Under the pieces are notes generated by a model, which saw only the letters and a list, made by a program, of their open reading frames with translations, had not been told where the DNA came from and made no database searches. Below are positions 8,127 to 37,500 of a DNA stretch of 45,975 bases, in pieces (positions within the stretch are counted from its first letter, which is position 1; the number at the start of each line of letters is the position of its first letter). The position numbers and the translations under genes are program-made. The stretch is taken from contig JAJFUG010000095.1 of assembly GCA_021372515.1 (NCBI GenBank), positions 1 through 45,975 of the forward strand. Reading direction: 5' to 3'. The DNA is from a bacterium (GTDB lineage: Bacteria; Gemmatimonadota; Glassbacteria; GWA2-58-10).

Positions 8127-8143
8127 GAATGAAGGATAAGGGG

Positions 8144-19714: not shown

Positions 19715-22339
19715 ATGCCCTGGCGTATCCTGTGTGTGATCGCCATCCTGACAGTCGCATGTGGCCGGAGTGCGCCGCCCGCGGAAAAGACCCCGCCGGC
19801 ATCAGCTGCGGGAGACATTTACGACGGCCGGGTGTTCGGTATCTACAAGCCGCTGGAAGCGGTGGAGAAAGACGGCCGGATAACGGTGAGCGGCGAGACT
19901 TTCGCCTGGACGTTCGACTGCGCCAGCGGCCAGGTGATCTCGGCCCGCGCCCTGGGGGATGAGTTCCTGGCCGCGGGGGCGAGTTTCCCCAATCCGTACG
20001 TGGGGCTGTTCCCGGCCAGCGACCCCGGGGCCAGTGTGGACGGCACGGCGGAGAGCCGCCCGCGCTACGGTTTCGAGAAAGCCGTGGCGATCCGGCCGAC
20101 TCTGTTCTCCGGCGGCCTGACCAGCGCTGTCCGCCTGGAGAGCATCGCCAGCGACAGCGTGACCACCCGCCTGGTCTCATCCGCGCCGGAGAATGTAGAG
20201 ATCACCTCCAACGGCCGCTATCTGGACGAGGCCGGCCAGCCCACCGGGCTGCGCTGGGAGGTGGGCTACCGGATCGACGTGGACGGATTCATGAAAGTGA
20301 CCGTGCGCCTGAGCACGGAACGCAAGCTGATGTTACGCTGGCACTGCTACAACCACACCATGTTCGACCGCCGCAGCGTCCGTTTCATGGCGCGGGACGA
20401 GGACCCGGGCGCTCCGCCGTTCAACATCCGCCAGGCCCCGACCGTATCGCTGGAGGGCCTCGCCGAGGGTGCTCCCGTGCTGGAGTCGCACTTCAACACG
20501 CTGTTCCACCTGGGCAACCCACTCACCGGCATCGAGTTCACCAAGGAGGAGTTCTCCGAGCGCCTGAGCGGCTACCGTGATTCCGCAGTGCGTCTGCCGG
20601 ACGGCAAGGTGGCGGACACCGGGTCGGTGGAGACAACGGACGGCAAGGTGCTGGAGGGCTGGGACTCGCGCGGCCGCCAGGACATTTTCACCCAGATCTA
20701 CAACCGCCCGGCCGGACTGGAGCTGGAGGAGTTCGATGTCCGCAACACCACGGTCCCGCTTAACCCCGGCGAGACCCGTGAGCGCTCGTTCTACGTGCAG
20801 CTCACCCCGCCCAAGCTGCCCCGCGCGGAGCTGGCCGGGGCGCGCATTGTCTGGCCGGGGCCGCACCAGATACGCATGGCGGGCTGGAAAGGCGACAGCG
20901 CCGCCTGGGAGCCGCCCTCGGATGAGCAGGTGCGCCAATGGGCGCAGATTGGTGTGAACCTGATCGTGGGCGGGGCGAACTATTTCTCGGGCGACTACGC
21001 CCGGCCCGACCAGCCCGAGAAAATCCGTCATTTCCTGGAGACCGCCCACGGCCTGGGTCTGCGGGTGATCCCCTATGTGACCACCTCGGACTGGGATTTT
21101 TCGGCCCCCGGCTACCAGGAGCACGCCGCCGACTGGATGAGTTCCAAGGACATCGAGTTCATCACCGAGACCAGCCTGATGTGTTTCGGGGCCGAGGGCT
21201 GGCGCAAGCACGTGGAGGGCCAGTGCGACACCCTGCTGATGAATTTCCCGTTCGACGGCCTGTATGTCGACAACTGGTTCATCACCCGTCACTGCACCAA
21301 CGCCCGCCACGGCTGCGGCGGCTACCTGGGGCGCTACGTGACCGACGGGTACCATGATTTCGCCCGCCGTCTGCGCCGCGTGGTCGCCCGTCACACCGGC
21401 GGCAAGGGGATCATGCTGTTCAACACGGACAATGTCTCCTGTTCCACCAGCCTGGCCTGGTTCGACCTGCGGCTTTCGGGCGAGAACAACAACCCGCTGC
21501 GCCTGGCCGGCGAGACCGTGCTCAGCACCTGGAACGGCAAGCGCCAGGGGGTGCAGTCCGTGGCGATGTGGCGCGAGGGTCAGGACCCGCTGGACATGCT
21601 CAATTTCTGCGCCCGCTACGGTTTCTCGTTCCGACTGATAGGCGGCCGCCGGGAGAGTGACATGCTGGAGCGCTGGAGCGCGGCAGCCTCACCCGACACG
21701 CCGCTGGGCTTCAACCGCCTGTACTGGGACATCGAACGTTTCTTCGGAGTCGGCGCGGCGCAGTGTTTCAGCGCGTTCGACAGCCGGGACGTGCTGAACG
21801 TCTCCGGCGAGGGCTCCACTGTGACCGCCTATGCGCGTGACGGCCGGGTGCTGCTCTGCCTGGGCTGTCTGCCCGGCGGCGCAGCGGTCGCATCCCGCGC
21901 CCCGCGCGGCGAGACCCTGAGCCTCAGGCAACCCGAGACCCTCGGCCTCGATCCGGCCGCGCGCTACCGTCTGGTGGACCTGGTTGCCGCGGCCTACCTG
22001 GAGAAAGGCCGCACGTTCAGCCTGACCGACCTGGCCGCCCTGAAACTGGCTCTCACCCCCGGCCGGACCAGTTTCCTACTGCTGGAGCCGGCCAGTGAGG
22101 GGCCGCGCCTGGTGTTTTTCCGCGGGGCGGACGGGGCAGCGGTCGAGGCTGCGGGTGACACCCTGAAAGTGACCCTGGAGGCGCCCGAGGGCGCGCCGCT
22201 CGGCCTGTACCTGGACCCGGACGGCGGGACTTACCAGTCCCTCACCCCGGAGGTGCAGCCCACCGCGGGTGCTTCTCTGGCCGCGTTCAGCGGGTCTGTG
22301 CCCGCCGGTCGGCAGGTGCTTTTATTGCTTAAGCGCTGA
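19715..22339 (+). CDS. Large lipoprotein, putative TIM-barrel glycosidase
   Basis: 874 residues. The N-terminus MPWRILCVIAILTVACGRS is a lipoprotein signal (TVAC). Residues ~30-380 are beta-rich, resembling the galactose-mutarotase-like sandwich that precedes many glycosidase barrels. Residues ~380-700 read as a TIM barrel: GARIVWPGPHQIRMAGW, GLRVIPYVTTSDWDF, FPFDGLYVDNWF (Asp in a strand-4 position like the nucleophile of clan GH-D), GIMLFNTDNV. The last ~150 residues are a beta domain. I cannot assign a family with confidence (DUF6259-like is possible). The preceding gene also encodes a barrel glycosidase, so the two may act in series, this one outside the cytoplasm. Confidence 0.6.
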   Translation: MPWRILCVIAILTVACGRSAPPAEKTPPASAAGDIYDGRVFGIYKPLEAVEKDGRITVSGETFAWTFDCASGQVISARALGDEFLAAGASFPNPYVGLFPASDPGASVDGTAESRPRYGFEKAVAIRPTLFSGGLTSAVRLESIASDSVTTRLVSSAPENVEITSNGRYLDEAGQPTGLRWEVGYRIDVDGFMKVTVRLSTERKLMLRWHCYNHTMFDRRSVRFMARDEDPGAPPFNIRQAPTVSLEGLAEGAPVLESHFNTLFHLGNPLTGIEFTKEEFSERLSGYRDSAVRLPDGKVADTGSVETTDGKVLEGWDSRGRQDIFTQIYNRPAGLELEEFDVRNTTVPLNPGETRERSFYVQLTPPKLPRAELAGARIVWPGPHQIRMAGWKGDSAAWEPPSDEQVRQWAQIGVNLIVGGANYFSGDYARPDQPEKIRHFLETAHGLGLRVIPYVTTSDWDFSAPGYQEHAADWMSSKDIEFITETSLMCFGAEGWRKHVEGQCDTLLMNFPFDGLYVDNWFITRHCTNARHGCGGYLGRYVTDGYHDFARRLRRVVARHTGGKGIMLFNTDNVSCSTSLAWFDLRLSGENNNPLRLAGETVLSTWNGKRQGVQSVAMWREGQDPLDMLNFCARYGFSFRLIGGRRESDMLERWSAAASPDTPLGFNRLYWDIERFFGVGAAQCFSAFDSRDVLNVSGEGSTVTAYARDGRVLLCLGCLPGGAAVASRAPRGETLSLRQPETLGLDPAARYRLVDLVAAAYLEKGRTFSLTDLAALKLALTPGRTSFLLLEPASEGPRLVFFRGADGAAVEAAGDTLKVTLEAPEGAPLGLYLDPDGGTYQSLTPEVQPTAGASLAAFSGSVPAGRQVLLLLKR

Positions 22340-22423: not shown

Positions 22424-23698
22424 ATGATGGAAGATAAACAGAAAGAGACAGGCCTCAGCCGCCGGGATTTCATCCTCAAAGGCGCCGGGGCCGCCGCGGT
22501 GGCGGTGGCCGGGCTGAGCGCGCTGGGCGCTCCGGCGATCGTGCGCGGCCAGAACCTGAACAGCAATCTCAACGTGGGCGTGATCGGCACGGGCAGCCGT
22601 GGCTGCTACCTTCTGCGTATCCTGGCCGCCCAGCCGCAGGTGATCATCTCGGATGTCTGCGACATCTACCCGCCGAACCTGGAAGAGGGCAAGAAAGACT
22701 CGGGCAACCCCAAGGTCCGCGCCTGGGAGGACTGGCAGAAGATCATCGAGCAGAAGGACGTGGACGCCGTGGTGGTGGCTCCGCCGCTGTTCCTGCACGT
22801 GCCGTGCAGCGTGGCCGCCCTTGAGGCGGGCAAGCACGTGTTCAGCGAAAAGAGCATGGGCCTGACGGTCAAGCAGCTCAACGAGGTGGGCGCCGCGGTC
22901 AAGGCCCACCCGGACAAGGTCTACCTGGTGGGCTACCAGAGCCGGATGATGGACTCGTTCAACGACGCCAAGAAACTGGTCCAAGGCGGCTCGCTGGGCA
23001 AGTTAGTCCAGTTCTACGTCCACTACGACAACAACCGCACCTGGCGCAAGGACGATGTCGATCCGAAATGGGAGCGCGTGCTCAACTGGCGCCTGTACAA
23101 GGAATACTGCGGCGGCATCCTGACCGAGCTGCTGACCCACGAGATCGACATGGTCCTGGATATCCTGGGCACCATGCCAGTATCCGGCTCCTGCACCGGC
23201 AAGATCCAGGTCTACCAGGACGGGCGCGAGCACTGGGACAGCCTGATGGGCCACTGGGAGATGGAGGACGGGGTGATCGGCGTGGCGAGCGGCGGGCTGG
23301 CCAATGCCCGCTGGGGGAGCTCCTGGGCCATCCACGGCACTTTCGGCACCCTGGAGTTCACCGGCAGCGCCTACCGTATTTTCTGGGAGAAAGAGACCCG
23401 CCACCTCCAGCAGCTCGGGCTCAAGCACAAGTTCAGCCAGATCAAGCTGGGCCAGTCGCTCAACGTGAGCGACGCCCCGATGACCGAGCCGGACAAGGTG
23501 GTCGACTACCGCGACAACACCGAGGACGGCAGCACGCGGGCGGTGCAGAATTTCTTCGAGTGTATCCGCAACGGCGGCCAGCCGGTGATGAACTACGACA
23601 CCTGCCGCCGTCCCTCCATCGCCGCGCTGATGCTGTACGAAAGCTCGTTCGACGGCGGGCGCAAGGTCACCCGCGAGGAGATCGAAGCCCAGGGCTGA
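22424..23698 (+). CDS. Tat-exported Gfo/Idh/MocA-family oxidoreductase
   Basis: 424 residues. LSRRDFILKG is a canonical Tat motif, followed by an Ala/Gly hydrophobic stretch. ATG 22427 may be the real start, because GGAGG ends 6 bases before it and only 3 before 22424. The Rossmann motif VGVIGTGSRG (residues 51-60) binds NAD(P), and AGKHVFSEKSMGLTVKQ is the family's EKP-type segment with Ser in place of Pro. ELLTHEIDMVLD holds the usual catalytic His region. Residues ~200-400 form the C-terminal beta-sheet domain. Tat export fits folding with cofactor before transport. It probably oxidises, reduces or (as in GH109-like relatives) cleaves a sugar derivative in the periplasm. Last gene before the terminator. 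Confidence 0.85.
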   Translation: MMEDKQKETGLSRRDFILKGAGAAAVAVAGLSALGAPAIVRGQNLNSNLNVGVIGTGSRGCYLLRILAAQPQVIISDVCDIYPPNLEEGKKDSGNPKVRAWEDWQKIIEQKDVDAVVVAPPLFLHVPCSVAALEAGKHVFSEKSMGLTVKQLNEVGAAVKAHPDKVYLVGYQSRMMDSFNDAKKLVQGGSLGKLVQFYVHYDNNRTWRKDDVDPKWERVLNWRLYKEYCGGILTELLTHEIDMVLDILGTMPVSGSCTGKIQVYQDGREHWDSLMGHWEMEDGVIGVASGGLANARWGSSWAIHGTFGTLEFTGSAYRIFWEKETRHLQQLGLKHKFSQIKLGQSLNVSDAPMTEPDKVVDYRDNTEDGSTRAVQNFFECIRNGGQPVMNYDTCRRPSIAALMLYESSFDGGRKVTREEIEAQG

Positions 23699-24022: not shown

Positions 24023-26287
24023 ATGAGCGCCAGAAAGCCGACATACGAGCAATTGGAGCAGCGTATCCTGGAGCTGGAGGAGAACGCGCGCCGCGGCGCC
24101 CTGGCCGAGCGCTCCCTGCACAGCATCGAGAGAAGCTACGCCGAGACGCTGAAGAACCTGGACAAGATGTGCCGGGAGATATACTCGATCCGCTCTATGG
24201 TCGGGATGCCGCAGATCTACCTGGACGAGAACTGGAATATCGTGGGCTACTCGGCGGACGCCCCGCTGCTCAGCCGCCGGGTGGTACGTTACACCCGCGA
24301 GCGCCGCAACATCCGCGAGTTTTTCCAGGAAAGCGATTTCGAAAAGATTTCCCGTCACCTTCAGAAAATCGCCTCACTGGAAAACCTGCCCTACGACGAG
24401 GGCCGCGAGTGGAAGCTGGCCTATGCCGGCCCGGCCGCGCCGGATGATCTGGAGCGGAACTGGATCATCTACCGTCACACCGAAAACTGCCATTGGAAGG
24501 TGCTGCCGCGCGAGGGCGGAGGGTTCAAGATCTACCATGCCCCGCACACCGATGATTACCTCGACTGTTGCCTGATGTCGGTGAGCGAGTTCGGCAGCGA
24601 GTTCGAGGACATCCGCCTGGTCTACACTATCCGCACCTCGCAGCGCAGCGAGGATATCCGCGACCTTTCCACGATCCTCTCGGGCTCCTCCGGGCTGGAG
24701 GCGGTCACCCCGGACATGTTCGGCTACACGGTCTGCCTGGGTTCGAATTACAACTCCGAGGGCCGTATCCAGAAACACGGCGCCAATGTGATCACCCGAC
24801 CCGAGTCGCTGGACACCGGCTCCGAGTACCGGGTGGTGATCGAGCGCGTGGGCGGCTGTGTCCGCCGCTGGGTGACCAACACCGCCACGGGCAGCGAGAT
24901 TCCGCTGCTGGAGTTCATCGACAGCAACGCGGTCTATTTCGGCCAGAACCACATCGGGTTCTACACATTCAGCGGTGAGGCCGAGTTCTACGACCTCCAG
25001 GTCTACACCCGCCAGTCGCGTTTCGAGCTGGAGCAGTTCCGCATCCCGATCGATATCGAGGTGGGTCTGCGCGACGATAAGCTGCGCGACAACGTATTCC
25101 GGCTCAAGTACGCCAAGAACGAGATCATGGGCAAAACCCTGCACACCCTGATGCTCGAGGATATCACCAAGCGCAAGGCCGATGAGGAGGCGCTGCGCGA
25201 GAGCGAGGAAAAATACCGCCGCCTGTTCGAGGAATCGCGGGTCGCCCTGAGCATCACCACCCCGGAGGGCCGTTTCCTGGACGTGAACCTGGAGATGACC
25301 AACCTGTTCGGCTACACCCACGAGGAGTTCATGCGCCTGCCGGCGGATGACCTGTATATCAACGTCGAGGACCGGATCATCTATCTGGGCGTGCTGGAGC
25401 GCAAGGGCTACGTGCGCGACTACGAGCTGCGGATGAAGCGCAAGGACGGCTCGATGGTGGAATGCCTGATCACCTCGACCGTGCACCGCAACCGTGACGG
25501 CTCGGTCTATTGCATCCAGGGCAGCATCCAGGACACCACCGAGCGCAAGCGGATGGAGGCCCAGATCAAGGAGTCGCAGCGCATGGAGGTGATCGGGCGG
25601 CTGGCCTCGGGCGTGGCCCACGAGGTGCGCAACCCGCTGAACGCGATCCTGGCGATCACCGAGGCCCTGTTCCAGGACATCGGGGACAACCCGGAGTACA
25701 GTCCCTACCTGGAGCACATCCGCACCCAGGTGGACCGTCTGGCCCTGCTGATGAAAGATCTCCTGGAGCTGGGCAAGCCGCTCAAGCGCGAAAGCTTCGT
25801 CCGCGACTCCATCCGCTCGATCTGCTCCGAGGCGATCGAACTGTGGAAACAGTCCTCCAGCCTGGGTGCGCGCAAGGTGCGCCTGGTGGTCGGCGCCGAG
25901 GGCGGGCGGCTGGAGGTGTTCGGCAACGGCAGCAAGCTCAAGCAGGTGGTGATGAACCTGCTGGAGAACGCGGCCCAGCACAGCCCCGAGGAAAGCGAGA
26001 TCGTGGTGGAGGTCGGCCTCGGCCAGAGCGGCATGCTCTCGGTCAAGATCCGCGACCGCGGCACCGGCATCTCGCCGGAGCTGCTGCCCGAGGTGTTCAA
26101 GCCGTTTTTCACCACCCGCAACCGCGGCGCCGGGCTCGGGCTCAGTATAGTAAAAAGCATAATCGAGACTCACGGCGGCCAGACTGAGCTGTTCAACAAC
26201 GACCCCGGCCCGGGACTGACAGTGGAAGTGACTTTGCCCCTGGCTCAGGAAGACGGGAATGAAGAAAAATATACTGCTGGTGGATGA
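24023..26287 (+). CDS. Soluble hybrid-sensor histidine kinase: PAS, jelly-roll insertion, PAS, HisKA, HATPase
   Basis: 754 residues with no signal peptide or membrane span, hence cytoplasmic. Residues 7-50 are predicted coiled coil. Residues ~60-115 look like the first half of a PAS domain (QIYLDENWNIVGYS). Residues ~155-330 are a beta-rich block resembling LamG/concanavalin sandwiches (EDIRLVYTIRTSQRS; YTVCLGSNYNSEGRI; GSEYRVVIERVGGCVRRW; HIGFYTFSGEAEFYDLQVY). A PAS-like ending follows (TLMLEDITKRK, ~375-385), then a second PAS (396-510). The HisKA H-box is SGVAHEVRNPLNAI with His533. The N-box (MNLLENAAQHS), G1 (DRGTGIS) and G2 (GAGLGLSIV) of the ATPase are intact. No SD before the ATG. It overlaps the activator gene by 29 bases, so the two form a cognate pair. 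Confidence 0.88.
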   Translation: MSARKPTYEQLEQRILELEENARRGALAERSLHSIERSYAETLKNLDKMCREIYSIRSMVGMPQIYLDENWNIVGYSADAPLLSRRVVRYTRERRNIREFFQESDFEKISRHLQKIASLENLPYDEGREWKLAYAGPAAPDDLERNWIIYRHTENCHWKVLPREGGGFKIYHAPHTDDYLDCCLMSVSEFGSEFEDIRLVYTIRTSQRSEDIRDLSTILSGSSGLEAVTPDMFGYTVCLGSNYNSEGRIQKHGANVITRPESLDTGSEYRVVIERVGGCVRRWVTNTATGSEIPLLEFIDSNAVYFGQNHIGFYTFSGEAEFYDLQVYTRQSRFELEQFRIPIDIEVGLRDDKLRDNVFRLKYAKNEIMGKTLHTLMLEDITKRKADEEALRESEEKYRRLFEESRVALSITTPEGRFLDVNLEMTNLFGYTHEEFMRLPADDLYINVEDRIIYLGVLERKGYVRDYELRMKRKDGSMVECLITSTVHRNRDGSVYCIQGSIQDTTERKRMEAQIKESQRMEVIGRLASGVAHEVRNPLNAILAITEALFQDIGDNPEYSPYLEHIRTQVDRLALLMKDLLELGKPLKRESFVRDSIRSICSEAIELWKQSSSLGARKVRLVVGAEGGRLEVFGNGSKLKQVVMNLLENAAQHSPEESEIVVEVGLGQSGMLSVKIRDRGTGISPELLPEVFKPFFTTRNRGAGLGLSIVKSIIETHGGQTELFNNDPGPGLTVEVTLPLAQEDGNEEKYTAGG

Positions 26288-27575
26288 CGATCCGGGCATC
26301 CGGTTCGGCTACACCAAGTTTTTCACACGCAACGGCTACAACCTCACCGCGGTGGCCTCGCTGGGCCAGGCCCGCAGCGCCGTGGCCGCGAACCGTTTCG
26401 ATGCGGCCCTGCTGGACATGGTGCTGCCCGACGGGAACAGTTTCGACTGGATTGAGGAACTGCGTCGCGACCATCCCGACATCGCCCTGGTGGTGATCAC
26501 AGGCCACGGCGATATTCCCACCGCCGTGGAGGCGATCCACCGCGGGGCCGATAATTTCCTGACCAAACCGGTGAGCCTGGAGGAGCTTTCGGTCATCCTG
26601 CAGAAAAGCCTGGAACTGGGCAGCCTGCGCCGCCGGCAGCTCACCACCCAGCAGCTCGGGCGAAACGGCGGCGCGTTTTTCGGCGAGCACCCGCTGATGC
26701 AGAAAGTGATGGAGCTGGCCGCCCTGGCCGCCGAGAACGATTCCCCGGTCCTGCTCCAGGGTGAGACCGGCACCGGCAAGGGGGTGCTGGCGCGCTGGAT
26801 CCACGACAACGGGGTCTGGAGCAGCAACCCCTACGTGGATATCAACTGCTCCAGCCTGAAAGGCGACCTTTTCGCCAGCGAGCTGTTCGGTCACGCCCGG
26901 GGGGCGTTCACCTCGGCCAACCAGGAAAAGCCGGGGCTGATCGAGGTGGCCGACGGGGGGACGCTGTTCCTGGACGAGATCAGCGACATGCCGCCCGGGG
27001 TGCAGGCCGAGTTCCTCAAGGTGATCGAGGAAAAGCAGTACCGCCGTCTGGGCGAGGTCCTGGTCCGGCGCAGCGAGTTCCGCCTGATCTGCTCCTCCAA
27101 CCAGAACCTGATGAAAAAGGTGTCCGAGGCCACTTTCCGCCAGGACCTCTTTTTCCGGATCAACGTGTTCCCGATCCAGTTGCCGCCGTTGCGCGCCCGC
27201 CGGGACGATATCCCGGCCCTGGCCCGCAGCATCCTGATCTCCCTGGGCTCCAGCACCGAAAACCTGAGTCCCGAGGCGATGGACCTTCTGGTGGCCCATT
27301 CCTGGCCCGGCAACATCCGCGAGCTGCGCAACGTCCTGGAGCGCGCCATCCTGCTTAGCCGTAACGGCCGCCTGACCGCCCGCCATCTGTCCGGCCTGGG
27401 CGGCGGCTCTCTGCCCGAGAGCGAAAGTCAGCCGGTCGGGCTGGAGGAGATGGAAAAAAGCCACATCAGCCAGATTCTCGACCGCTTCAACGGCGACACC
27501 CGCAAGGCCGCCGAGGTGCTCGGGATTTCGCTGGCCACGCTCTACCGCAAGATAAAAAAACTCCGAATCGGCTGA
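26259..27575 (+). CDS. NtrC-family sigma-54-dependent response regulator
   Basis: 438 residues. Receiver domain 1-120 has acidic pocket residues VDDD (8-11), phospho-acceptor Asp53 in [10 protein letters not shown] and Lys in FLTKPVS. AAA+ domain ~138-365 has Walker A GETGTGKG (168-175), the sigma-54 contact loop GAFTSA (215-220, Ser replacing the second Gly of GAFTGA) and Walker B GTLFLDEI. The C-terminus holds a Fis-type HTH ([19 protein letters not shown]). RBS AGGAAG is 6 bases upstream. It overlaps the kinase gene, so it is the probable partner and would activate sigma-54 promoters; I found no clear -24/-12 site in this window. Confidence 0.93.
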
Positions 27576-27715: not shown

Positions 27716-27750
27716 AAAGATGCCACGCTCAACGGCGTGGCATCTTTTTT
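27716..27750 (+). terminator. Rho-independent terminator between the two regulators
   Basis: GATGCCACGC, 6-base loop, GCGTGGCATC, then six Ts; AAA before the stem extends it by pairing with the first Ts. It lies 141 bases after the activator gene and 38 bases before the single-domain regulator, separating the two transcripts unless read through. Confidence 0.88.
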
Positions 27751-27787: not shown

Positions 27788-28204
27788 ATGACACCGAAAA
27801 GAATCCTTCTTGTGGACGACGAGACTGCGGTTTTGTTCGCCTACAAAAAAGTCCTCCAGCGCACTGGTTTGCTGGTTGACGCGACGGATTCCAAGAAGGA
27901 AACGATCCGGCTGCTGGAGCGGCATGCCTACGACGTGGCGATCTTGGACCTGAGGCTCAGCGGCGGGACCTGCGAGGAAGGCTTCGAGCTGATGTCGGTC
28001 ATCAAGAGCAAGGCGCCCTCCACCAAGATCATGCTGATCACGGCTTACGGCAATCCCGAAATACAGGACAAAGCCACCCGGCTGGGGGCGGATTTCTATT
28101 TCGAAAAGCCTGTCTCCACCAAGTTCATCCAGGAGGCGCTGCGCCTGGCCGGTGTGCCGATCCAGGATGACGAGATTTCGAAAGTGATCTGGAAGTTCAA
28201 TTGA
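27788..28204 (+). CDS. Single-domain response regulator
   Basis: 138 residues from ATG 27788, chosen because the receiver fold begins there (MTPKRILLVDDE); the same frame opens upstream inside the terminator hairpin, which I regard as non-coding. The RBS is weak. The acidic pair is Asp10/Asp11, the phospho-acceptor is Asp54 in AILDLRLSGG, the switch Thr lies in MLITAYG and the conserved Lys in YFEKPVS. After the receiver only a ~20-residue tail (IQDDEISKVIWKFN) remains, so there is no output domain. It probably relays phosphate or acts by protein contact, perhaps with the nearby kinase, which has no receiver of its own. Confidence 0.85.
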   Translation: MTPKRILLVDDETAVLFAYKKVLQRTGLLVDATDSKKETIRLLERHAYDVAILDLRLSGGTCEEGFELMSVIKSKAPSTKIMLITAYGNPEIQDKATRLGADFYFEKPVSTKFIQEALRLAGVPIQDDEISKVIWKFN

Positions 28205-28407: not shown

Positions 28408-31400
28408 ATGCAACACAGAATCTCACTCGTACACGTGTCGCGGATGCTGGCGCTGGCGGCGACGCTGGTGCTGGTGAATGCGGCGCTGATCCTGGCCCAG
28501 CTCAGCACGGCGAAGGTCGAGGGTGTTGTCCGTGACAAAGATACGGGCAAGCCCTTGCAGGGTGCGCAGGTCACCATCGAGGGCACCCGATTGGGTAACG
28601 TGACCAATGCAGATGGTTACTTCTTTATCCTGAACGTGCCGCCCGGACGCCAGTCGATCACCTTCACTTTCACCGGTTATCAGAAGATGACGGTTGCCGA
28701 CCAGCTCCTGCTGGCCGGCCAGACCGCGACTGTCAACGGCACCATGAGTTCGACCGTGGTGGAGATGCAGGGGATTACGGTCGAGGGTGAAGCCGAAGTG
28801 CTTGTCCCGCGCGACAACACGGTGACCAAGCAGCGTATGACCTCCGCGGATGTCAAAGAGACCCCGGCGACCAAGCTTGAGGACATGATGGTCCTGCAGG
28901 CCGGCGTCCAGGTCGGTGGCCGTGACGCCGAGGCGCGCGGTCTCCGTATCCGCGGCGGCCGTCTGGGTGAGGAAGGTATGGTGGTGGACGGCGTGATGGT
29001 GCGCAACTACACCGCCAACCCCTTCCAGAGCGGCCAGGGCTGGATTTTCGAGACTGAAATCGGTTCCCAGGGCGAGGACACCACGCCTCTGGAGATTTCG
29101 TCCGACGCCGTGGAGCAGGTGGATATCATCACCGGCGGCTTCCAGGCCGAGTATGGTAACGCGCAGTCCGGTATCGTCAACATCGTCACCAAGGAAGGCG
29201 GCGCGGACTATCGCGGGAGCGTGCGTTTCACCACCGACCAGCAGCAGCCCCGCACCTCGGACTGGGGTTACAACCAAGTCCAGACAAGTGTCGGCGGGCC
29301 GGTGCCCCTGGTCAAGAACATGTATTTCCACGGTTCGGGAGAAATCCAGGGCTTTGCCGACCGTATCGCCACTCACGCGGATGAGGGTTTCCGCGGGGTC
29401 AACCAGGACTTCGTCGACCGCCTGAACAATGCGGTGCGCAACGACCCGGTCCTGGGCGAGCGCGGCACTCCTTACACTCTGGAAATGCTCAAGACCGGCC
29501 ATGAATTCTATGCCAGCCACACCGGGGGGTTGGAATCGCTGTTCTCCCCGCCCAATCCGGTGCGCCTGCCCGGCAACTGGCAGGACCGCACCCTGGCCAC
29601 CGGCAAGATGACCTATTCACCGATGGACGGCGTCAAGCTGCTGGCCATCGACAGCTGGTCGCGCAACCAGCAGTCCTATCCCACCGGCTACACGGCTGAG
29701 GGTAACTATTTCCAGACCGGTGTCGTCGACCGGACCACCGATTTTTACAAAAATTACCTCAGCACGTACTGGGACCTCAGTCCCTGGTGGACCAAGGGCT
29801 ACGACAGGTTCTACGTGCCGCAGGGCTACGGTCGCCGCACAAAGACCAACGTGCTGACCCTGGGCGCCGATTACGATTTCTGGCGCAGCACCCAGCGCAG
29901 CGCCACCCTGCAGCTCCGCTACTGGAAAATGTCCTCGCAGGACATCAACACCGCCAGCCTGAAGACCAACTGGGAACGGGACACGTTCCTGAGCTGGTCT
30001 CCGCACGACATCCAGTTCGAGGTCGAGACCTGGCCGGGCAAGGAAGGTCTGACCACGGATGACATGAAGCGCGCCTACCTGCCCGACGGCGCCACCGGCT
30101 GGAAGCAGTACGTGCCGTTCGAGGGTCCCTTCGGCGTTGAGGAGGAGACCTTCTACTACATGAACTACGGCTATCTGTCCGAGCACCAGAACAACTACAA
30201 GGCCGACCTCGACCTGCAGATCGACCGGCGTAACCGCGCCAAGATCGGGTTCCAGTCGACCTACATCAACAACAACGTTTTCCGCACCAACTACACCACC
30301 GAGAAGCGCGATCCGCGCAACGAGTTCCGCTACAAGCCCCTGATTTATGCGGTCTATGCGCAGAACCGCACCGATCTCGGCGATTTCGTGTTCGACTATG
30401 GCCTGCGGTATGACGGGTTCCAGCACAACCGGAACTGGGGCATCACCTCGCTGGACGCCTGGGGTGAGACGGTCAACCCCCGCACGCTGCACGAATGGTC
30501 GCCGCGTTTCGATGTCGCTTTCCCGGTGACCGACAAGTCGCAGATGCGTTTCAGCTACGGCGTATTCACCCAGCTGCCCAGCCTGGACATGATGTATGCC
30601 GGATCCAGCGGCGGCTCGCCGTTTATGAACCCCGGTGGCCTGGAATTCAGCCGCACGGACGCTTTCGAGTCCGGCCTGAGCTATCTGGTGACTCCCGACA
30701 TGGTCCTCGACGTCGTCGCCTTCTACCGCGATGTTGACGGCAACGTGGCCACCAAGGCTTATTTCCGTGACTACTACGCCTGGCATCGCCAGGAGCGTTT
30801 CCGTGAGTGGAACCAGGGCTATGTCAACCGCGACAACGGCAACATCAAGGGCGTGGATTTCAAGCTGCAGCGCCGCTTCTCCAACAATTTCTCCTATAAC
30901 CTGATGTACACCCTGCAGTACAGCCGCACGACCGGCAGCTCCTACAACAGCAGCCAGGGCGTCGGCGACTTCGACGCCACGTCGAACGAGCTGTTCGTTC
31001 CGCCCGATGAGTTGCGTCCGATCGACGGTGACCGTTCGCACAAGCTGACTGCCCAGTTCAACTATCTCGTTCCGCAGGATTTCAAGGCCGGGACGATCTA
31101 CAACAAGATTCTGGGCAACGTGAGTGCTTACGCGGTGTTCCAGCTGCTTAGCGGCGAGCCTCTGCTCAGCCGCAACGGTTCCTCGTACACCGGCAGCGAG
31201 AACTCGAGCCTGACCGATCAGTGGGGTGGCTACAACTTCTTCCGCGGCCGCTGGTACACGAACATCGACACCCGCTTCTCCAAGCGGTTCACCATCGGTG
31301 GCTCGCGCCAGTTGTCAGTGTTCGGCGAGGTTTACAACCTGTTGAACCGCAAGAACAATACTCCGTATCCTCATCCGCGTTCCTATGAGGATGCTTCGCA

Positions 31401-31620
31401 CATCACCGGCGGCGAAGATGTAAGCTGGGATGGGATTGCCAATGAACCCAGCAACCGCACCCATGTGCGTTTCAACGCGGATTTCAACGGCGACGGGATC
31501 CTGACAGTGGATGAAGCCGCTTTGGGCGCCATTGCCGAGGACTTCGTGACCTCGACCATGGACAAGCGTCTCTGGGGCACTGCGCGCCAGATTCGCATGG
31601 GGGTCGATTTCTCCTTCTGA
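28408..31620 (+). CDS. TonB-dependent outer-membrane receptor with carboxypeptidase-like N-terminal domain
   Basis: 1070 residues from ATG 28408 (GGGGGA upstream; the first hydrophobic signal starts there). A signal peptide ends near ALILAQ. Residues ~36-105 are a CarboxypepD_reg/CNA-B-like sandwich (VEGVVRDKDTGKPLQGAQVT; NADGYFFILNVPPG), as in SusC/Oar-type receptors. The plug follows (~130-265; LRIRGGRLGEEGMVVDG; EYGNAQSGIVNIVTKEGG). The rest is an aromatic-rich beta-barrel ending in Phe (RMGVDFSF), the outer-membrane insertion signal. A canonical EF-hand loop (DFNGDGILTVDE, 31480-31515) sits in the last part of the barrel. No SusD gene is adjacent; the next genes are a secreted type IX-like protein and a PorV-like barrel. 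Confidence 0.92.
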   Translation: MQHRISLVHVSRMLALAATLVLVNAALILAQLSTAKVEGVVRDKDTGKPLQGAQVTIEGTRLGNVTNADGYFFILNVPPGRQSITFTFTGYQKMTVADQLLLAGQTATVNGTMSSTVVEMQGITVEGEAEVLVPRDNTVTKQRMTSADVKETPATKLEDMMVLQAGVQVGGRDAEARGLRIRGGRLGEEGMVVDGVMVRNYTANPFQSGQGWIFETEIGSQGEDTTPLEISSDAVEQVDIITGGFQAEYGNAQSGIVNIVTKEGGADYRGSVRFTTDQQQPRTSDWGYNQVQTSVGGPVPLVKNMYFHGSGEIQGFADRIATHADEGFRGVNQDFVDRLNNAVRNDPVLGERGTPYTLEMLKTGHEFYASHTGGLESLFSPPNPVRLPGNWQDRTLATGKMTYSPMDGVKLLAIDSWSRNQQSYPTGYTAEGNYFQTGVVDRTTDFYKNYLSTYWDLSPWWTKGYDRFYVPQGYGRRTKTNVLTLGADYDFWRSTQRSATLQLRYWKMSSQDINTASLKTNWERDTFLSWSPHDIQFEVETWPGKEGLTTDDMKRAYLPDGATGWKQYVPFEGPFGVEEETFYYMNYGYLSEHQNNYKADLDLQIDRRNRAKIGFQSTYINNNVFRTNYTTEKRDPRNEFRYKPLIYAVYAQNRTDLGDFVFDYGLRYDGFQHNRNWGITSLDAWGETVNPRTLHEWSPRFDVAFPVTDKSQMRFSYGVFTQLPSLDMMYAGSSGGSPFMNPGGLEFSRTDAFESGLSYLVTPDMVLDVVAFYRDVDGNVATKAYFRDYYAWHRQERFREWNQGYVNRDNGNIKGVDFKLQRRFSNNFSYNLMYTLQYSRTTGSSYNSSQGVGDFDATSNELFVPPDELRPIDGDRSHKLTAQFNYLVPQDFKAGTIYNKILGNVSAYAVFQLLSGEPLLSRNGSSYTGSENSSLTDQWGGYNFFRGRWYTNIDTRFSKRFTIGGSRQLSVFGEVYNLLNRKNNTPYPHPRSYEDASHITGGEDVSWDGIANEPSNRTHVRFNADFNGDGILTVDEAALGAIAEDFVTSTMDKRLWGTARQIRMGVDFSF

Positions 31621-31653
31621 GCCGGTTCTGGCAGACGCTCAGAAGACAGTGTT

Positions 31654-31683
31654 CTGCTTAATTATGCGTAAAATAAGCAGGAG
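31654..31683 (+). promoter_or_regulatory. Hairpin overlapping the ribosome binding site of the secreted-protein gene
   Basis: CTGCTTA (31654-31660), 13-base AT-rich loop, TAAGCAG (31674-31680). The RBS AGGAG occupies 31679-31683, so its first two bases are in the 3' arm. ATG 31690 follows 6 bases later. The geometry suits translational control by masking the RBS. Confidence 0.5.
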
Positions 31684-31689
31684 ATCATT

Positions 31690-34600
31690 ATGATACGAAA
31701 AGGCATTCTGCTGGTTACCCTTGCGGCGCTGGTCGGCCTGCTGGCATCACCGGCCTCGGCCGAGCGGCTCGCGCAGCGGATATCCCGCGGAAACAACGTG
31801 GGAATGGGACTGATGACCGGTTGGGCCATGCCGTGGATCACCGCGACCTGGTCTGGCAACACCCTTCAGTTCCCGAAGGGTTCAGGTAACTTAATAGGGA
31901 ACGACTGCTGGACATTCGGTATAGCCACCGCCCGCGATTTCAACGGCGACGGTCTGGCTGAAGATACTCTGGTACTCGGTTCCGGCGGTCGTGACAACAT
32001 GGCCGGCTACTGCTCGCCGTTCCCTTGGGCCGAGCAGCTCATCAACGCGGAAGGCGCGGTGGAGCCGAACATGGAAGGTCACATGGCCGAGCTGGAGTTC
32101 AACCGTATCTGGACCAGTCTGGACGCGCAGGAGCTGGCCGACTGGCCGCGGGAAGGGCGCGAAGGCTTCGCGGCTGACGGCGCCCCGATCCTGCACGGCG
32201 CCGAGACCATGTTCACCCACTCGGGCGATGTGTTCAACTCCTGGGGCGGTCCGACCAACGGTTTCTACATGGCCTGGAGCATGTATTTCCTGGACTTCGC
32301 CGAGAGCAACAACATGGTCTATGTCCATGTGTTGACCAGTAACGTCACCATGTACGAAAAGTACAACCCGACGTACGGTGGAGCCTCCGCCGCCAAACCG
32401 GACCCGCGTTGCGTGGCCAACCCGGACGGCTGGGACTGGAAGGGCATGGTCCTGTTCGAGAACCGCCGCGGCTGGGATTACGGCTGGACCGGCAACGGTG
32501 CGGCCTGGGCTTACCATCCGGAAAAAGAGATCGTCACTTTCTGGAGCCGTCAGCCCACTATCTCCAATTTCACTCCCAACACCCCCGCGCTGATGGGCGG
32601 CAAGATGCTGAAAAAGCCCATGCTGCGCGGCCAGGTGGCCGAGATGACCAACCTCTGGAACACCACGGACGACAGGTATCCAGAGTTCGGGTTCTCGGGT
32701 GCGGGCAACCTGCTGGCCTCCGGTCTGCCTCTGAGTGTGCAGTACCAGTGCGGACGGGGCACCTACCCGTTCTTCAAAGGTATGATCAGCCCCCTGACCG
32801 GCCGCGAGGTTATGGGCTGGCCGGGCGTGCTCTATCCCAGCGACAGCCGCTATCATCAGTGGGTTTGGGGTGGACGCGGTAACTGGCAGACCTATACCTT
32901 CTGGAGCGAGCTGACCGATGTCGCCCCGCGTGACACGTTCTCCTTCGATTACGTGATCATGTTCTCGCCCTCCGGCGTGACTCCGCTGGTGGCTCCGACC
33001 TACGACATCGCCAACATCGACGCCCCGATGATGCAGGAGGCTTTCGCCCCGCAGGCGCATTACGCCGACGTGGCGCAGGGCGTGTTCGACGGCGGGTTCG
33101 TCACTCCGGCCACGCCGGTTCCCCCGCTGATGACAATCGTCCCGGGCGATCGCGAGGTGACTATCACCTGGAGCGATGTCAATCTCCAGACTCCGGATCC
33201 ATACGCCTTGTTCCTGGAGCAGAATCCGGAGCTGGACCCGGAGCACCTCTACCGGAAGTTCGATTTCGAAGGCTACCGCCTGTACCGCAGCTTTGTCGGC
33301 CCGAACGACTCGCACAGCGAGATGATCTACAAGTGCAGCCTGACGGACGGCAACCTGACATTCTTCTATGTCGACAAGCTGGAGAGCGACCAGCCCTATT
33401 TCCGCATGCGTAACGGGATGAAGGTCTGGTACGCTCTGGTGCCTTACGACCGCAACTACGATCCGGCCACCGGAGCGGCGTTCAGCCTGCCCGATCCGAC
33501 CAGCGGCAAGGCCTGGAACCGTGCGGGCGAGTCCGGCCTGTACAACGTGATCCCGCGCAGCGACGCCAGCGATTTCAGGGTCGCTTCGATGGGCAACGTG
33601 GCTTTCAGCCCGGCGACAGCCGCCAATTACCTGGAAGGCCCGACCGTTAACCTGACCGGCGATGGCAACGGGAAGCTGACTGAGGCTCCGAAGGTGATAA
33701 TGCCTTCGATCAAGGAAGTGAAGTTCCTTCCGGTCAACAACGAACGTATCACCTCCGACATGACAGTCAACCTGGTCTGCACGGACCAGGGCGTCTGGAG
33801 CGTAAGCTGCGGCGGTAACCGTATGCAGGGCACCCGCACGATGCAGATCGTGGAAGGGGCGAAGAGCGGTATCGGCCAGGACCTGATCGGCGGCAGCGAC
33901 AACGAGCAGACCCTGACCTACCAGGGCCCGGCGGATGCCGAGGGCATCAACTACGCCTTCGATGTCACCTTCCAGGGTATGCAGCAGTCCGGGCAGTATC
34001 AGTCATACTACTATGATATGGATCCCGGAACATACACCGGCGGCGAGATCGACCTGCCGACCGCGCGTTCCTGCGGCTCGGACTCCAAGCCGGGCACCTC
34101 GCCCAGCAACGTGGCGATGGCCAAGGCCGGTCGTTTCACCATCACCTGGAAGGACGCCGGTGGCGGTAAGATGACGGTCGAGGTGAAGGACATAGTGCGT
34201 GGTATCACCATACCGCATGTCGACTATCCCGACCAGTACGGCTGGGGCTTCCAGACCAAGGAAGGCTTCGGAGCCGATATCGGTTCCGCAGGCAATCGTG
34301 GTGTGTATTATGACGAGGCCTTCTCCAATCAGGTGCCGGTCAGCCAGCGTACGGTGAAGATGCCGGAGACCATATCGGCCGACAACACCGAGCATTTCGG
34401 CCTGTGGCTGAACGGTGGCCTGTGGCGTATCTCCTCGGGCGGCGGCGATGGCATCACCATGCCGACAGCCGGCACGGTCTGGACCGCCACCAACGCCTTC
34501 GGCAGCTGGAACGGCGATGGGACGGTCTTCACCCAGGTGCCGGACCTGCCCTGGCTGGGCGACAAGTGGACGATCGAGATCAAGAAGAGCACGCTGGACG

Positions 34601-34989
34601 CCAAGGATGCCGACCTGAGCAAGATCAAGGTCGTCCCGAACCCGTACATCGCCAGCTCGTTCCTCGACCTGTCGGCCACGCAGCGCCGTGTCGATTTCGT
34701 CAACCTGCCCGATCGTTGCACCATCCGTATCTATACGTTGGGCGGCAACCTGGTCAACGTGCTGAACCATATCGGGTCGAACCGTTCCGGCTGGGGCAAT
34801 TACACCGACTGGGACCGTCTGACCCTGAGTGAACCCAAAGTCATGACCGGCTACGACAACCACAGCGGCACCGAACCGTGGAACCTGAGAAACCGCTTCG
34901 GCCAGACGATCGCCAGCGGTCTCTATTTCTACCACGTGACGGATACGCGAGGGAAGACTTACACCGGCAAGTTCTACGTCATCGACTGA
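31690..34989 (+). CDS. Very large secreted protein with type IX-like C-terminal domain
   Basis: 1099 residues. The signal peptide MIRKGILLVTLAALVGLLASPASA is textbook. Residues ~25-470 are a Trp/Gly/aromatic-rich region of unknown family with an aspartate-rich turn DFNGDGLAEDT. Residues ~480-620 look like a fibronectin/Ig module (REVTITWSDVN ... WYALVPYDRNYDP). The end begins KVVPNPYIASS and closes with GQTIASGLYFYHVTD ... GKFYVID, the FlgD/Por-type C-terminal domain that directs type IX-like export in FCB bacteria. It lies between a TonB receptor and a PorV-like barrel, both outer-membrane proteins, so surface display and a joint role are likely. Its function is not recognised. Confidence 0.8.
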   Translation: MIRKGILLVTLAALVGLLASPASAERLAQRISRGNNVGMGLMTGWAMPWITATWSGNTLQFPKGSGNLIGNDCWTFGIATARDFNGDGLAEDTLVLGSGGRDNMAGYCSPFPWAEQLINAEGAVEPNMEGHMAELEFNRIWTSLDAQELADWPREGREGFAADGAPILHGAETMFTHSGDVFNSWGGPTNGFYMAWSMYFLDFAESNNMVYVHVLTSNVTMYEKYNPTYGGASAAKPDPRCVANPDGWDWKGMVLFENRRGWDYGWTGNGAAWAYHPEKEIVTFWSRQPTISNFTPNTPALMGGKMLKKPMLRGQVAEMTNLWNTTDDRYPEFGFSGAGNLLASGLPLSVQYQCGRGTYPFFKGMISPLTGREVMGWPGVLYPSDSRYHQWVWGGRGNWQTYTFWSELTDVAPRDTFSFDYVIMFSPSGVTPLVAPTYDIANIDAPMMQEAFAPQAHYADVAQGVFDGGFVTPATPVPPLMTIVPGDREVTITWSDVNLQTPDPYALFLEQNPELDPEHLYRKFDFEGYRLYRSFVGPNDSHSEMIYKCSLTDGNLTFFYVDKLESDQPYFRMRNGMKVWYALVPYDRNYDPATGAAFSLPDPTSGKAWNRAGESGLYNVIPRSDASDFRVASMGNVAFSPATAANYLEGPTVNLTGDGNGKLTEAPKVIMPSIKEVKFLPVNNERITSDMTVNLVCTDQGVWSVSCGGNRMQGTRTMQIVEGAKSGIGQDLIGGSDNEQTLTYQGPADAEGINYAFDVTFQGMQQSGQYQSYYYDMDPGTYTGGEIDLPTARSCGSDSKPGTSPSNVAMAKAGRFTITWKDAGGGKMTVEVKDIVRGITIPHVDYPDQYGWGFQTKEGFGADIGSAGNRGVYYDEAFSNQVPVSQRTVKMPETISADNTEHFGLWLNGGLWRISSGGGDGITMPTAGTVWTATNAFGSWNGDGTVFTQVPDLPWLGDKWTIEIKKSTLDAKDADLSKIKVVPNPYIASSFLDLSATQRRVDFVNLPDRCTIRIYTLGGNLVNVLNHIGSNRSGWGNYTDWDRLTLSEPKVMTGYDNHSGTEPWNLRNRFGQTIASGLYFYHVTDTRGKTYTGKFYVID

Positions 34990-35051
34990 GGCCCGTTTAT
35001 GATCGCGAGCTTGAACGGAAACTTTCCCCGCAGCCTTTATGGAGGTTTGAT

Positions 35052-36263
35052 ATGATAAGGAAGACGGCCATACGAGCCATGCTTACGGCCTGTGCGGTCC
35101 TGTCGCTGGTGGCGGTCAGCCTGCATGCGCAGGGGGTAAGCCGGCAGGACTACACGGGACTGGACAAATACCTGGAACAGGGCCGGATGGACAACTCCTC
35201 GTTTGTTGGAGTCCGCGCGGCTGAGTTCCTGACGATCCCGGTGGGTGCACGGGGCATCGCCCTGGGCAGCGCCTACGCGGCGATTACGGACGACATCAGC
35301 TCGATCTGGTGGAACCCGGCCGGTTTGGGTTTCATGCGTAACCGCGAGGTGATGCTGAACGTGGTCGACTACACCCTCGACCTGACCTACAGCTATGCCG
35401 CCGCCGCGTTCCCGATGAGCGACGGTAAAATAGTGGTGGGCGGGTTCTTCGGCTATCTCGACATCCCGGATATCGAGATCACCACAGTCAGTTCGCCCGA
35501 GGGCACCGGATCGACTTTCAACGCCTATGATTTTCAGATGGGCGGCAGCTTCGCCTACAACTTCAGCGACCGTTTCATGGGTGGCATGAGCTTGAAGTAC
35601 GTGCACCAGGACATGTGGGGCAACATGGGCGCCAACGCTTTCGCCATTGACGCCGGTGCGATCTACCACACCGAGTTCATGGACCGCGAGATCCGCTTCG
35701 CTTTCGCGATCCAGAACCTGGGCACGAACATGACGTTCAGCGGCCCGAACCTGCTGACCGATATCGGCCCGCAGGGTGAGGACGGCAGTTTCCCCGGTGG
35801 GTACAACGATTTCAGCACCGATCCCTACGCGATCAGCCGTCGCTCCTCGCGTGAGGTCATGATGCGCACCCACACCTACCGTCTGCCGACCACGATGAAG
35901 ATTGCGTTGGCCTACAACCTGTACACCAGCGAGAAGGTCAACTGGCTGGCCTCCGCCGAACTTTGGCGCCCCAGCTACATCCCCATCTCCTATGCCACCG
36001 GCACCGAGCTGAACTACAACTTCAACCCGACCATTTCCGCTGCCCTGCGGATGGGTTGGCAGATACAGACCGACGAGTACACCGAGGACAAGGATCAGTT
36101 CGGGTATGATTACCTGGGCGATGATCCGACCTGGCGCGGCCTGAGCTTCGGCGGCGGCATCCAGCGCAGCTTCGGTGACAAGACCCTGCGTTTCAACTAT
36201 GCCTACAAGAACAAGGGAAGACTGTCTGCGGACAACTTCTTCTCCATGTCCTTCGGCTTCTAA
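35052..36263 (+). CDS. PorV/PorQ-like outer-membrane beta-barrel (UPF0164-type)
   Basis: 403 residues from ATG 35052 (GGAGG 6 bases upstream). The signal peptide ends VSLHAQG. Soon after, the family landmark appears: FLTIPVGARGIALGSAYAAI then DDISSIWWNPAGLGF, typical of PorV-like FadL-superfamily barrels of FCB bacteria. The remainder alternates polar and aromatic residues in strands and ends in Phe (SMSFGF), an outer-membrane insertion signal. PorV is the shuttle protein that hands type IX substrates to the surface. It lies 62 bases after a protein with the matching C-terminal domain. The terminator after it closes the triad. Confidence 0.88.
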   Translation: MIRKTAIRAMLTACAVLSLVAVSLHAQGVSRQDYTGLDKYLEQGRMDNSSFVGVRAAEFLTIPVGARGIALGSAYAAITDDISSIWWNPAGLGFMRNREVMLNVVDYTLDLTYSYAAAAFPMSDGKIVVGGFFGYLDIPDIEITTVSSPEGTGSTFNAYDFQMGGSFAYNFSDRFMGGMSLKYVHQDMWGNMGANAFAIDAGAIYHTEFMDREIRFAFAIQNLGTNMTFSGPNLLTDIGPQGEDGSFPGGYNDFSTDPYAISRRSSREVMMRTHTYRLPTTMKIALAYNLYTSEKVNWLASAELWRPSYIPISYATGTELNYNFNPTISAALRMGWQIQTDEYTEDKDQFGYDYLGDDPTWRGLSFGGGIQRSFGDKTLRFNYAYKNKGRLSADNFFSMSFGF

Positions 36264-36286
36264 GGCTGGACGCAGAGCCGGTACTG

Positions 36287-36320
36287 AAGGCGCCCCCGGT
36301 CCGCCGGGGGCGCCTTTTTA
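36287..36320 (+). terminator. Strong terminator after the PorV-like gene
   Basis: AAGGCGCCCCCGG, 4-base loop, CCGGGGGCGCC, then five Ts. It begins 24 bases after the stop and marks the end of the receptor/secreted protein/PorV transcription unit. Confidence 0.92.
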
Positions 36321-36546: not shown

Positions 36547-37500
36547 ATGAAAATCAACCGGACCGGTCACGCCCTCGGGGCAGTGCCGGAAAAAGTCCTC
36601 AACGGCCGGGCCAGGCTGGGTTTCTCGACAATGGTCCTGGCGGAATACAAGCTGGCCGATGCCCTGGAACGGATGTCGTCCCAAGGGGTCAGGAATGTCG
36701 AGCTCTGGGCCGACATCAGCCATCTCGACCCGCGCAACAGCTCCGAGAACGCGGCTGCGGCCGCCCGTCAGGTCTTCGACAGCGGGATGCGGGTGCTCTC
36801 GATCCACGCGCCTTTCACGGTGCGGCCGGACGATCCGCTGGAAAAGCAGCTCCTCGACTGGGAGGTGCTGGCCTGCCAGACCATCGCCCGGGCGGATTAT
36901 CTGGGCGCCTCGATCGTGGTGCTGCACCCGATGACCGATGCGCTCGATGAGAGTAACCCGGCCTACACCCGAGTGGTCCGGCATACCACCAACGCCCTGT
37001 ACCGCCTGTCCGACATCGCGGCGGTCCTGGATGTCCGGCTGGCCGTGGAGAATATGCCCTCGGCCGGGGGCGGACGGTTCGGGCGTTCCCTGGAGGAGCT
37101 TTTTCTGCTGGTCGAGTCGAGCGGGCGGGACAACCTGGGCCTCTGCCTGGACACCGGCCACGTGGTGGTCAACGGCGGCAGCCTGACCCGCAGCGTCGAG
37201 GCGGTCAGCGACCGCCTGTTCTCGATCCACCTGCACGACAACCTGTACGGCCAGCCGGATGATCTGCATCTCATCCCGGGCCAGGGCGAAATCGACTGGG
37301 CCGGCCTGTGTGACACGCTGGAGGCCATCGGCTACAGCGGCAACCTGGTGCTGGAGCTGGACGGCAAGAAAAATGCTTTGGAAGTGTTCTCGGAAGGGGT
37401 CAGGTTTGCCTGCGATTTTTTCTCGAACGGACAGACAGTTCCGCAGGGACGGCGCGAAAAAGCCCTGACCGAGACCGCGGGTGGAAACACCAACCTCTGA
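36547..37500 (+). CDS. Sugar phosphate isomerase/epimerase-like TIM barrel
   Basis: 317 residues, cytoplasmic. It belongs to the xylose-isomerase-like/AP endonuclease 2 superfamily. Barrel strands carry the expected metal ligands: HAPFTV (early His), VVLHPMTD, LAVENMPS (Glu), GLCLDTGHVVV (Asp and His), FSIHLHDN (His-x-His) and the final LVLELDG (Glu). The first ~25 residues precede the barrel. A sugar epimerase/isomerase role suits the carbohydrate theme; the substrate is unknown. It lies downstream of a strong terminator, so it has its own promoter. A 51-residue gene follows after 12 bases. Confidence 0.8.
   Translation: MKINRTGHALGAVPEKVLNGRARLGFSTMVLAEYKLADALERMSSQGVRNVELWADISHLDPRNSSENAAAAARQVFDSGMRVLSIHAPFTVRPDDPLEKQLLDWEVLACQTIARADYLGASIVVLHPMTDALDESNPAYTRVVRHTTNALYRLSDIAAVLDVRLAVENMPSAGGGRFGRSLEELFLLVESSGRDNLGLCLDTGHVVVNGGSLTRSVEAVSDRLFSIHLHDNLYGQPDDLHLIPGQGEIDWAGLCDTLEAIGYSGNLVLELDGKKNALEVFSEGVRFACDFFSNGQTVPQGRREKALTETAGGNTNL

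Follow-up and report, generated by a model that had tools for sequence, protein, structure and literature searches.

The window analysed here, a 45,975-nucleotide stretch of DNA, is contig 95 of the genome of an uncultured member of the Glassbacteria (phylum Gemmatimonadota; 4.87 Mb, 99.5% complete, 222 contigs). Three consecutive, co-directional genes in this window, separated by intergenic gaps of 69 nt (TBDR-SEC) and 62 nt (SEC-PORV) and followed by a closing terminator, encode a TonB-dependent receptor (TBDR), a secreted protein (SEC) and an outer-membrane barrel (PORV). All of these features lie where the original prediction had placed them, and the regulators it had reported just upstream are also found: a PAS kinase precedes TBDR together with two response regulators, one of the sigma-54 type and one with a single domain. 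The features of the trio are as follows.

28408..31620, + strand: TBDR, TonB-dependent receptor of 1070 aa (ORF, domain matches and structure model)
31480..31515, + strand: EF-hand loop DFNGDGILTVDE of TBDR, residues 1025-1036, preceding the final barrel strand
31690..34989, + strand: SEC, secreted protein of 1099 aa with a signal peptide without lipobox and a type IX-related C-terminal domain (CTD)
31768..33099, + strand: variable N-terminal domain of SEC (N-domain), residues 27-470, which co-diverges with the receptor barrel
34615..34986, + strand: CTD of SEC, residues 976-1099, PorZ-type with an insertion of ~25 residues; most conserved part of SEC
35052..36263, + strand: PORV, PorV/PorQ-family outer-membrane barrel, with a PorQ score above its PorV score (NCBIfam)
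36289..36319, + strand: intrinsic terminator with a perfect 11-bp GC stem, a TCCG loop and TTTTT, read directly from the letters

Genomic setting of the trio

The genes surrounding the trio in the window are the following.

15888..17543, + strand: SSF sodium:solute symporter
17569..19662, + strand: melibiase-like (GH36-type) enzyme
19715..22339, + strand: DUF6259 protein
22424..23698, + strand: GFO/IDH/MocA oxidoreductase
24023..26287, + strand: PAS sensor histidine kinase
26259..27575, + strand: sigma-54-activating response regulator (NtrC type), overlapping the kinase gene
27788..28204, + strand: single-domain response regulator immediately upstream of the trio
36547..37500, + strand: sugar isomerase/epimerase-like TIM barrel (AP_endonuc_2)

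Judged from its gene content, the region from 15.9 to 37.5 kb (~22 kb) looks like one sugar-use locus. Specifically, positions 15888-37500 combine sensors and regulators, glycan enzymes and a TonB transporter, and thereby constitute a PUL in the functional sense, without the canonical susCD marker. The response regulator at 27788-28204, which has no output domain, recurs in the same place, after the sigma-54 regulator and ahead of the trio, at five other loci (L009, L011, L014, L017 and L021), and a 14-bp hairpin with a T run at 27716-27747, between the sigma-54 and the single-domain regulators, likely separates two transcripts. Because an NtrC-type regulator adjoins, a sigma-54 promoter would be expected before the trios; the best sites upstream of the trios at 23 loci are no better than those in shuffles.

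Genome-wide, the barrel, SEC and the receptor give 25, 24 and 32 matches, respectively, with several matches coming from some genes. Twelve close trios are complete, with identities to the window copy of 49-70% for the receptor, 44-56% for SEC and 62-84% for the barrel, and three complete divergent trios (on C61, C16 and C113) bring the complete same-order total to 15. Further copies are cut by contig ends (C148, C44, C124, C174, C139, C27, C83, C165 and C140), and the true trio number may exceed the count since contig breaks often fall inside trios. Because the same order recurs about 15-20 times in the genome, the arrangement is far beyond chance. No partner-less copy with intact flanks is found in this genome except a decayed barrel on C57 (L027:6553-7227), a frame-broken PORV remnant without receptor or SEC that is a relic of a trio and adjoins a GH2 exo-glucosaminidase and a sensor/regulator pair. 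Additionally, four more distant PorV-family genes lie outside trios (on C50, C30, C204 and C99).

Most of the expanded copies have sugar enzymes as neighbours, as well as ROK regulators and sensors of the PUL type, a genome-wide background rate being available for ROK and melibiase only. Four of the genome's eight ROK genes lie directly upstream of a trio receptor. The regulators flanking close trios comprise, besides ROK, Reg_prop kinases and a Reg_prop/Y_Y_Y sigma-54 activator, and the flanking enzymes comprise GH2, GH28, GH36-like, DUF4832/GH42-like, pectate-lyase-like beta-helix and acetyl-xylan-esterase-like proteins, together with a NagB-like protein and SSF symporters; kinase/NtrC/response regulator sets flank many Glassbacteria copies. 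Melibiase genes as such do not cluster significantly with the trios (2/7 close). Two close trios (L014 and L020) have regulators or unrelated genes only in their flanks, and the neighbouring genes scanned at the divergent trios L024, L025 and L035 include no sugar genes. Beside the trio of L020, a pair on C33 (L020:4-6318) lacks PORV and couples a 914-aa receptor to a downstream protein of 1119 aa whose T9SS tail is canonical.

Families of the receptor, the secreted protein and the barrel

TBDR consists of a CarboxypepD_reg-like (CPD) domain (residues 37-125), a plug (residues 135-255) and a Cir/BtuB-type barrel. Its plug and TonB-type beta barrel, together with TBDT fold neighbours at E-values down to 3e-21, place it among the TonB-dependent receptors, and the trio receptors match the PF07715 plug in 12/12 copies and the PF00593 barrel in 6/12. 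The structure model of TBDR is of low confidence (pLDDT 51) and is used for coarse neighbours only, i.e. for assignment to TonB-dependent receptors of the Cir/FepA/BtuB type; its fold neighbours are Cir, PirA, FepA and BtuB, and the top 50 contain no SusC/RagA. Nor do the NCBIfam matches of TBDR up to E 0.01 include the SusC/RagA family model (OMP_RagA_SusC). We therefore drop the label 'SusC-like' that the receptor had been given and describe it as Cir/BtuB-like. The EF-hand loop, which TBDT topology would place in the last extracellular loop, occurs 44-46 residues from the C-terminus in all 26 Glassbacteria trio receptors checked, and is found at that position neither in five other receptors of the genome nor in the trio receptors of other families.

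SEC matches no Pfam family over its 1099 residues; it carries a signal peptide, and no lipobox is found in its copies. An EF-hand-like loop is also present in its N-domain (residues 83-92), of a kind seen in 21 of the 22 close SEC copies. No solved-structure relatives of SEC are found. AlphaFold2 run on 15 SEC sequences gives a pLDDT of 66, mostly 60-90 in the N-domain and below 40 in the CTD, and the fold search returns weak matches to carbohydrate-enzyme beta-supersandwiches (E ~1e-3, TM about 0.2 or less, rmsd > 9 Å), which are too weak for us to claim a GH94/GH15-type (glycoside phosphorylase/hydrolase) fold for the N-domain. At the C-terminus of SEC, residues 975-1098 match the T9SS PorZ model with E 6.6e-4, the one model that recognises this domain; it matches the CTD in 14/14 copies. 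By hhalign, the CTD aligns, apart from its ~25-residue insertion, with canonical type A CTDs of the same genome (prob 93, E 3e-7), and TIGR04183 matches the SEC tails below cut-off (2/14 marginal), with no close SEC copy among the 33 TIGR04183 tails of the genome that exceed it. From these comparisons, the type IX-type CTD ascribed to this protein appears to be type IX-related but divergent.

PORV matches the PorV/PorQ family model NF033709 with E 3.5e-45 and 155 bits against a curated cut-off of 90, as do 12/12 copies. Of the equivalogs, PorQ (NF033711) scores 85.5 of 220 and PorV (NF033710) 59 of 250, neither reaching its cut-off; the PorQ model is matched by 12/12 PORV copies with a better best E-value than the PorV model, and the only solved relative of PORV is the T9SS PorV. 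The barrel had been called PorV-like, of which the PorV/PorQ family membership stands and the affinity to PorV does not, and by these scores PORV probably represents a separate subfamily nearer PorQ. The genome also encodes T9SS core components, as judged from SprA (over cut-off) and the PorU sortase (586 bits); PorU lies beside a separate PorV on C30, which scores higher with PorV than with PorQ, opposite to the trio barrel.

In P. gingivalis, PorQ directly binds PorZ and appears to anchor it at the surface (PMC5562754), and the PorZ CTD remains uncleaved (PMC10202324). Because the CTD of SEC is PorZ-type and PORV leans to PorQ, we infer by analogy that SEC may likewise retain its CTD and be held by its own PORV. 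The original prediction had SEC delivered by its own dedicated PorV; with a pair closer to PorZ/PorQ, a permanent anchor is likelier than a delivery shuttle, and delivery of SEC would still need the shared T9SS, i.e. SprA, PorU and the separate PorV encoded elsewhere.

Conservation, SusD and co-divergence

A profile search with SEC in public genomes returns 14 relatives, all in three MAGs (two Ca. Glassbacteria and one labelled Gemmatimonadales), and the 12 relatives with intact flanks all sit in the full trio, or beside the adjoining receptor part where a contig end truncates the receptor. In the phylum at large, SEC matches occur in 101 of 395 Gemmatimonadota genomes; outside the family of the window genome, these matches are distant, the alignment being confined to an internal stretch and the C-terminal portion of SEC, mostly in proteins of about 1050-1500 aa. 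Distant loci were fetched from these SEC matches and chosen regardless of neighbours, and 17 of the 18 with readable flanks hold the trio in the same order, while two more have SEC and the barrel with the receptor side cut off. The three-gene adjacency thus holds in 15/15 cases in this genome where flanks allow, in 12/12 in other Glassbacteria and in 17/18 across the phylum. Rare adjacency of the homologues would have refuted the original prediction, and on this point the outcome is strongly in its favour. Because the distant loci keep the same order, the trio is old in the Gemmatimonadota. Core-type trios are few per genome, and the close type is amplified in the window genome's family, with 15 close trios here, about 4-7 in four relatives and none in a fifth. 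In other families, a genome typically yields a single core trio, beside which no sugar genes are seen. In several Gemmatimonadota families, a GWxTD-domain protein then follows the core trio (L079:8848-10239 and 10 further loci). We also considered the core-trio neighbours as a key to the ancestral function; they are the GWxTD protein and an M24 peptidase or small barrel, and are uninformative.

SusCD pairs are the textbook outer-membrane route for large glycans, and SusD homologues are the usual PUL marker. A survey found susCD PULs to be widespread in Gemmatimonadota (PMC10469786). In line with this, 320 of 395 Gemmatimonadota genomes have SusD (PF07980), against 0/6 in the window genome's family. 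The window genome itself has no PF07980, the one model with which SusD was searched. The six SusD-less genomes form one lineage and represent roughly one event. SusD and a core trio occur together in many genomes of other families and are not mutually exclusive, so the distribution appears to be a lineage-level replacement pattern rather than exclusion.

We compared pairwise divergences over 22 complete trios from four genomes. The SEC N-domain (residues 27-470) and the receptor barrel diverge in step (r 0.76; 0.61 as a partial correlation given PORV; p 0.0002), where PORV is an imperfect control and co-inheritance can partly contribute. The equally variable middle of SEC (residues 630-970) shows no significant correlation with the receptor barrel (r 0.13), and the periplasmic CPD domain of the receptor does not covary with the N-domain (r 0.04). 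Nearest neighbours among the 22 trios show that the N-domain, the receptor barrel and PORV keep cross-genome orthology, whereas the middle is homogenised within each genome, which explains why the N-domain tracks the barrel and the middle does not; for the middle, 18/22 nearest neighbours are from the same genome, as by domain swapping or gene conversion. This pattern would fit a specificity block common to the SEC N-domain and the receptor barrel.

A candidate outer-membrane uptake unit

In the reading we lean towards, the trio serves a PUL-like carbohydrate locus as its uptake unit at the outer membrane, and SEC is a lid on a TonB transporter, exported by the T9SS and anchored by a barrel. 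In this mechanism, TBDR would be the TonB-driven transporter, and SEC would be exported through the cell's shared T9SS, would keep its PorZ-type CTD rather than have it cut off, and would be held at the cell surface via this CTD bound to its own PorQ-like barrel, PORV. The variable N-domain of SEC would then lie over the mouth of TBDR, capture a specific glycan and pass it to the barrel. SEC may thus act like SusD on SusC or BtuG on BtuB, with the T9SS route and a protein anchor replacing the lipid anchor. Both contacts, SEC-PORV and SEC-TBDR, are deduced from the family assignments and divergence patterns above, as is the glycan substrate from the gene neighbourhoods; for the window copy, the melibiase-like gene suggests perhaps an alpha-galactoside. 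No sugar neighbours are seen beside the core trios of other families or beside L024, L025 and L035, and glycan uptake should therefore not be generalised to all trios.

The proposed unit resembles several known systems. Like SusC/SusD of Bacteroidota PULs, a TonB transporter adjoins a surface-protein gene, many divergent copies occur per genome, and local regulators with Reg_prop sensors and glycan enzymes lie nearby; unlike them, the receptor has no SusC match, and SEC is neither SusD nor a lipoprotein, is presumably exported by the T9SS and comes with an extra PorQ-like barrel. The vitamin B12 complex BtuB/BtuG (PMC10404256) sets a precedent, since its BtuB-type barrel bears a lid, and shares with the trio a Cir/BtuB-type barrel with a surface lid, presumed for the trio, but BtuG is a surface lipoprotein of a different lid family and has no barrel anchor. 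With PorZ/PorQ of the T9SS attachment complex (PMC5562754), the trio shares the PorZ-type CTD, the PorQ-leaning barrel and, putatively, a T9SS-exported protein held at the surface by its own barrel; however, SEC matches PorZ in the CTD only, and the trio is tied to a TBDR, is present in many copies and is not part of a single attachment complex. In type B T9SS cargo with cognate PorP/SprF (PMC10202324), a cargo gene likewise clusters with its own barrel gene, but the CTD type and the barrel family differ. We find no published description of the trio in the open-access literature.

The alternative closest to this reading is that SEC is an ordinary T9SS-secreted glycan-binding or -degrading surface protein that is merely co-regulated with the receptor and presented by PORV, with no lid complex. 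The genome has at least 33 other T9SS-tailed proteins, the weak fold matches of the N-domain are to glycoside phosphorylase/hydrolase beta-sandwiches, and the pair on C33 shows a receptor and a secreted protein together without a barrel. Such a cargo would, however, hardly account for the near-perfect linkage across the phylum despite strong divergence, for co-divergence of the N-domain alone with the receptor's membrane part alone, or for a PorZ/PorQ-type pairing that differs from the genome's ordinary T9SS cargo, and we regard this explanation as unlikely. Less probable still is that the trio serves envelope maintenance or signalling, as a surface sensor for the kinases or in outer-membrane assembly, with sugar genes incidental to the expanded copies. 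Core trios elsewhere, usually single, followed by a GWxTD protein or small outer-membrane barrel and without visible sugar genes, would be in keeping with such a role, as would the kinase/NtrC/response regulator sets beside many Glassbacteria copies; yet the receptor retains its CPD domain, plug and TonB-type barrel, the expanded copies have diverse sugar genes next to them, along with ROK or Reg_prop regulators, and ligand diversity fits the variable N-domain and loops. That PORV is its own FadL-like transporter of small hydrophobic compounds, unrelated to SEC, is very improbable: a sub-threshold match to Toluene_X/FadL is outweighed by the far stronger NF033709 match, the T9SS PorV is its only solved relative, and PORV follows SEC in every complete trio.

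The uptake-unit reading bears on the suggestion that the trio is a SusCD alternative. Three findings strengthen this idea, namely that the family lacks SusD (0/6), the sugar loci and the co-divergence of the N-domain with the barrel; it loses the SusC-like receptor and, with a PorQ-like third gene, the PorV; in this revised form it is now well motivated. More tentatively, and with a little less than even confidence in the whole, the trio could be a three-part TonB machine in which a T9SS-exported lid, attached through its retained CTD to its own PorQ-like barrel, replaces SusD across the class; it would have arisen from an ancient trio found throughout the phylum by amplification in genomes lacking SusD. 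If the trio does the work of SusCD, SusD-based surveys miss Glassbacteria PULs, the assembly of uptake complexes becomes a further role of the T9SS, and many unexplained PorV/PorQ-family paralogues gain a function as dedicated anchors.

Elsewhere in the window, the protein encoded at positions 1-1686 ends in a canonical T9SS type A tail, and two adjacent sortilin/VPS10-type BNR repeat paralogues at 5664-10618 are preceded by an amidohydrolase gene and its paralogue.
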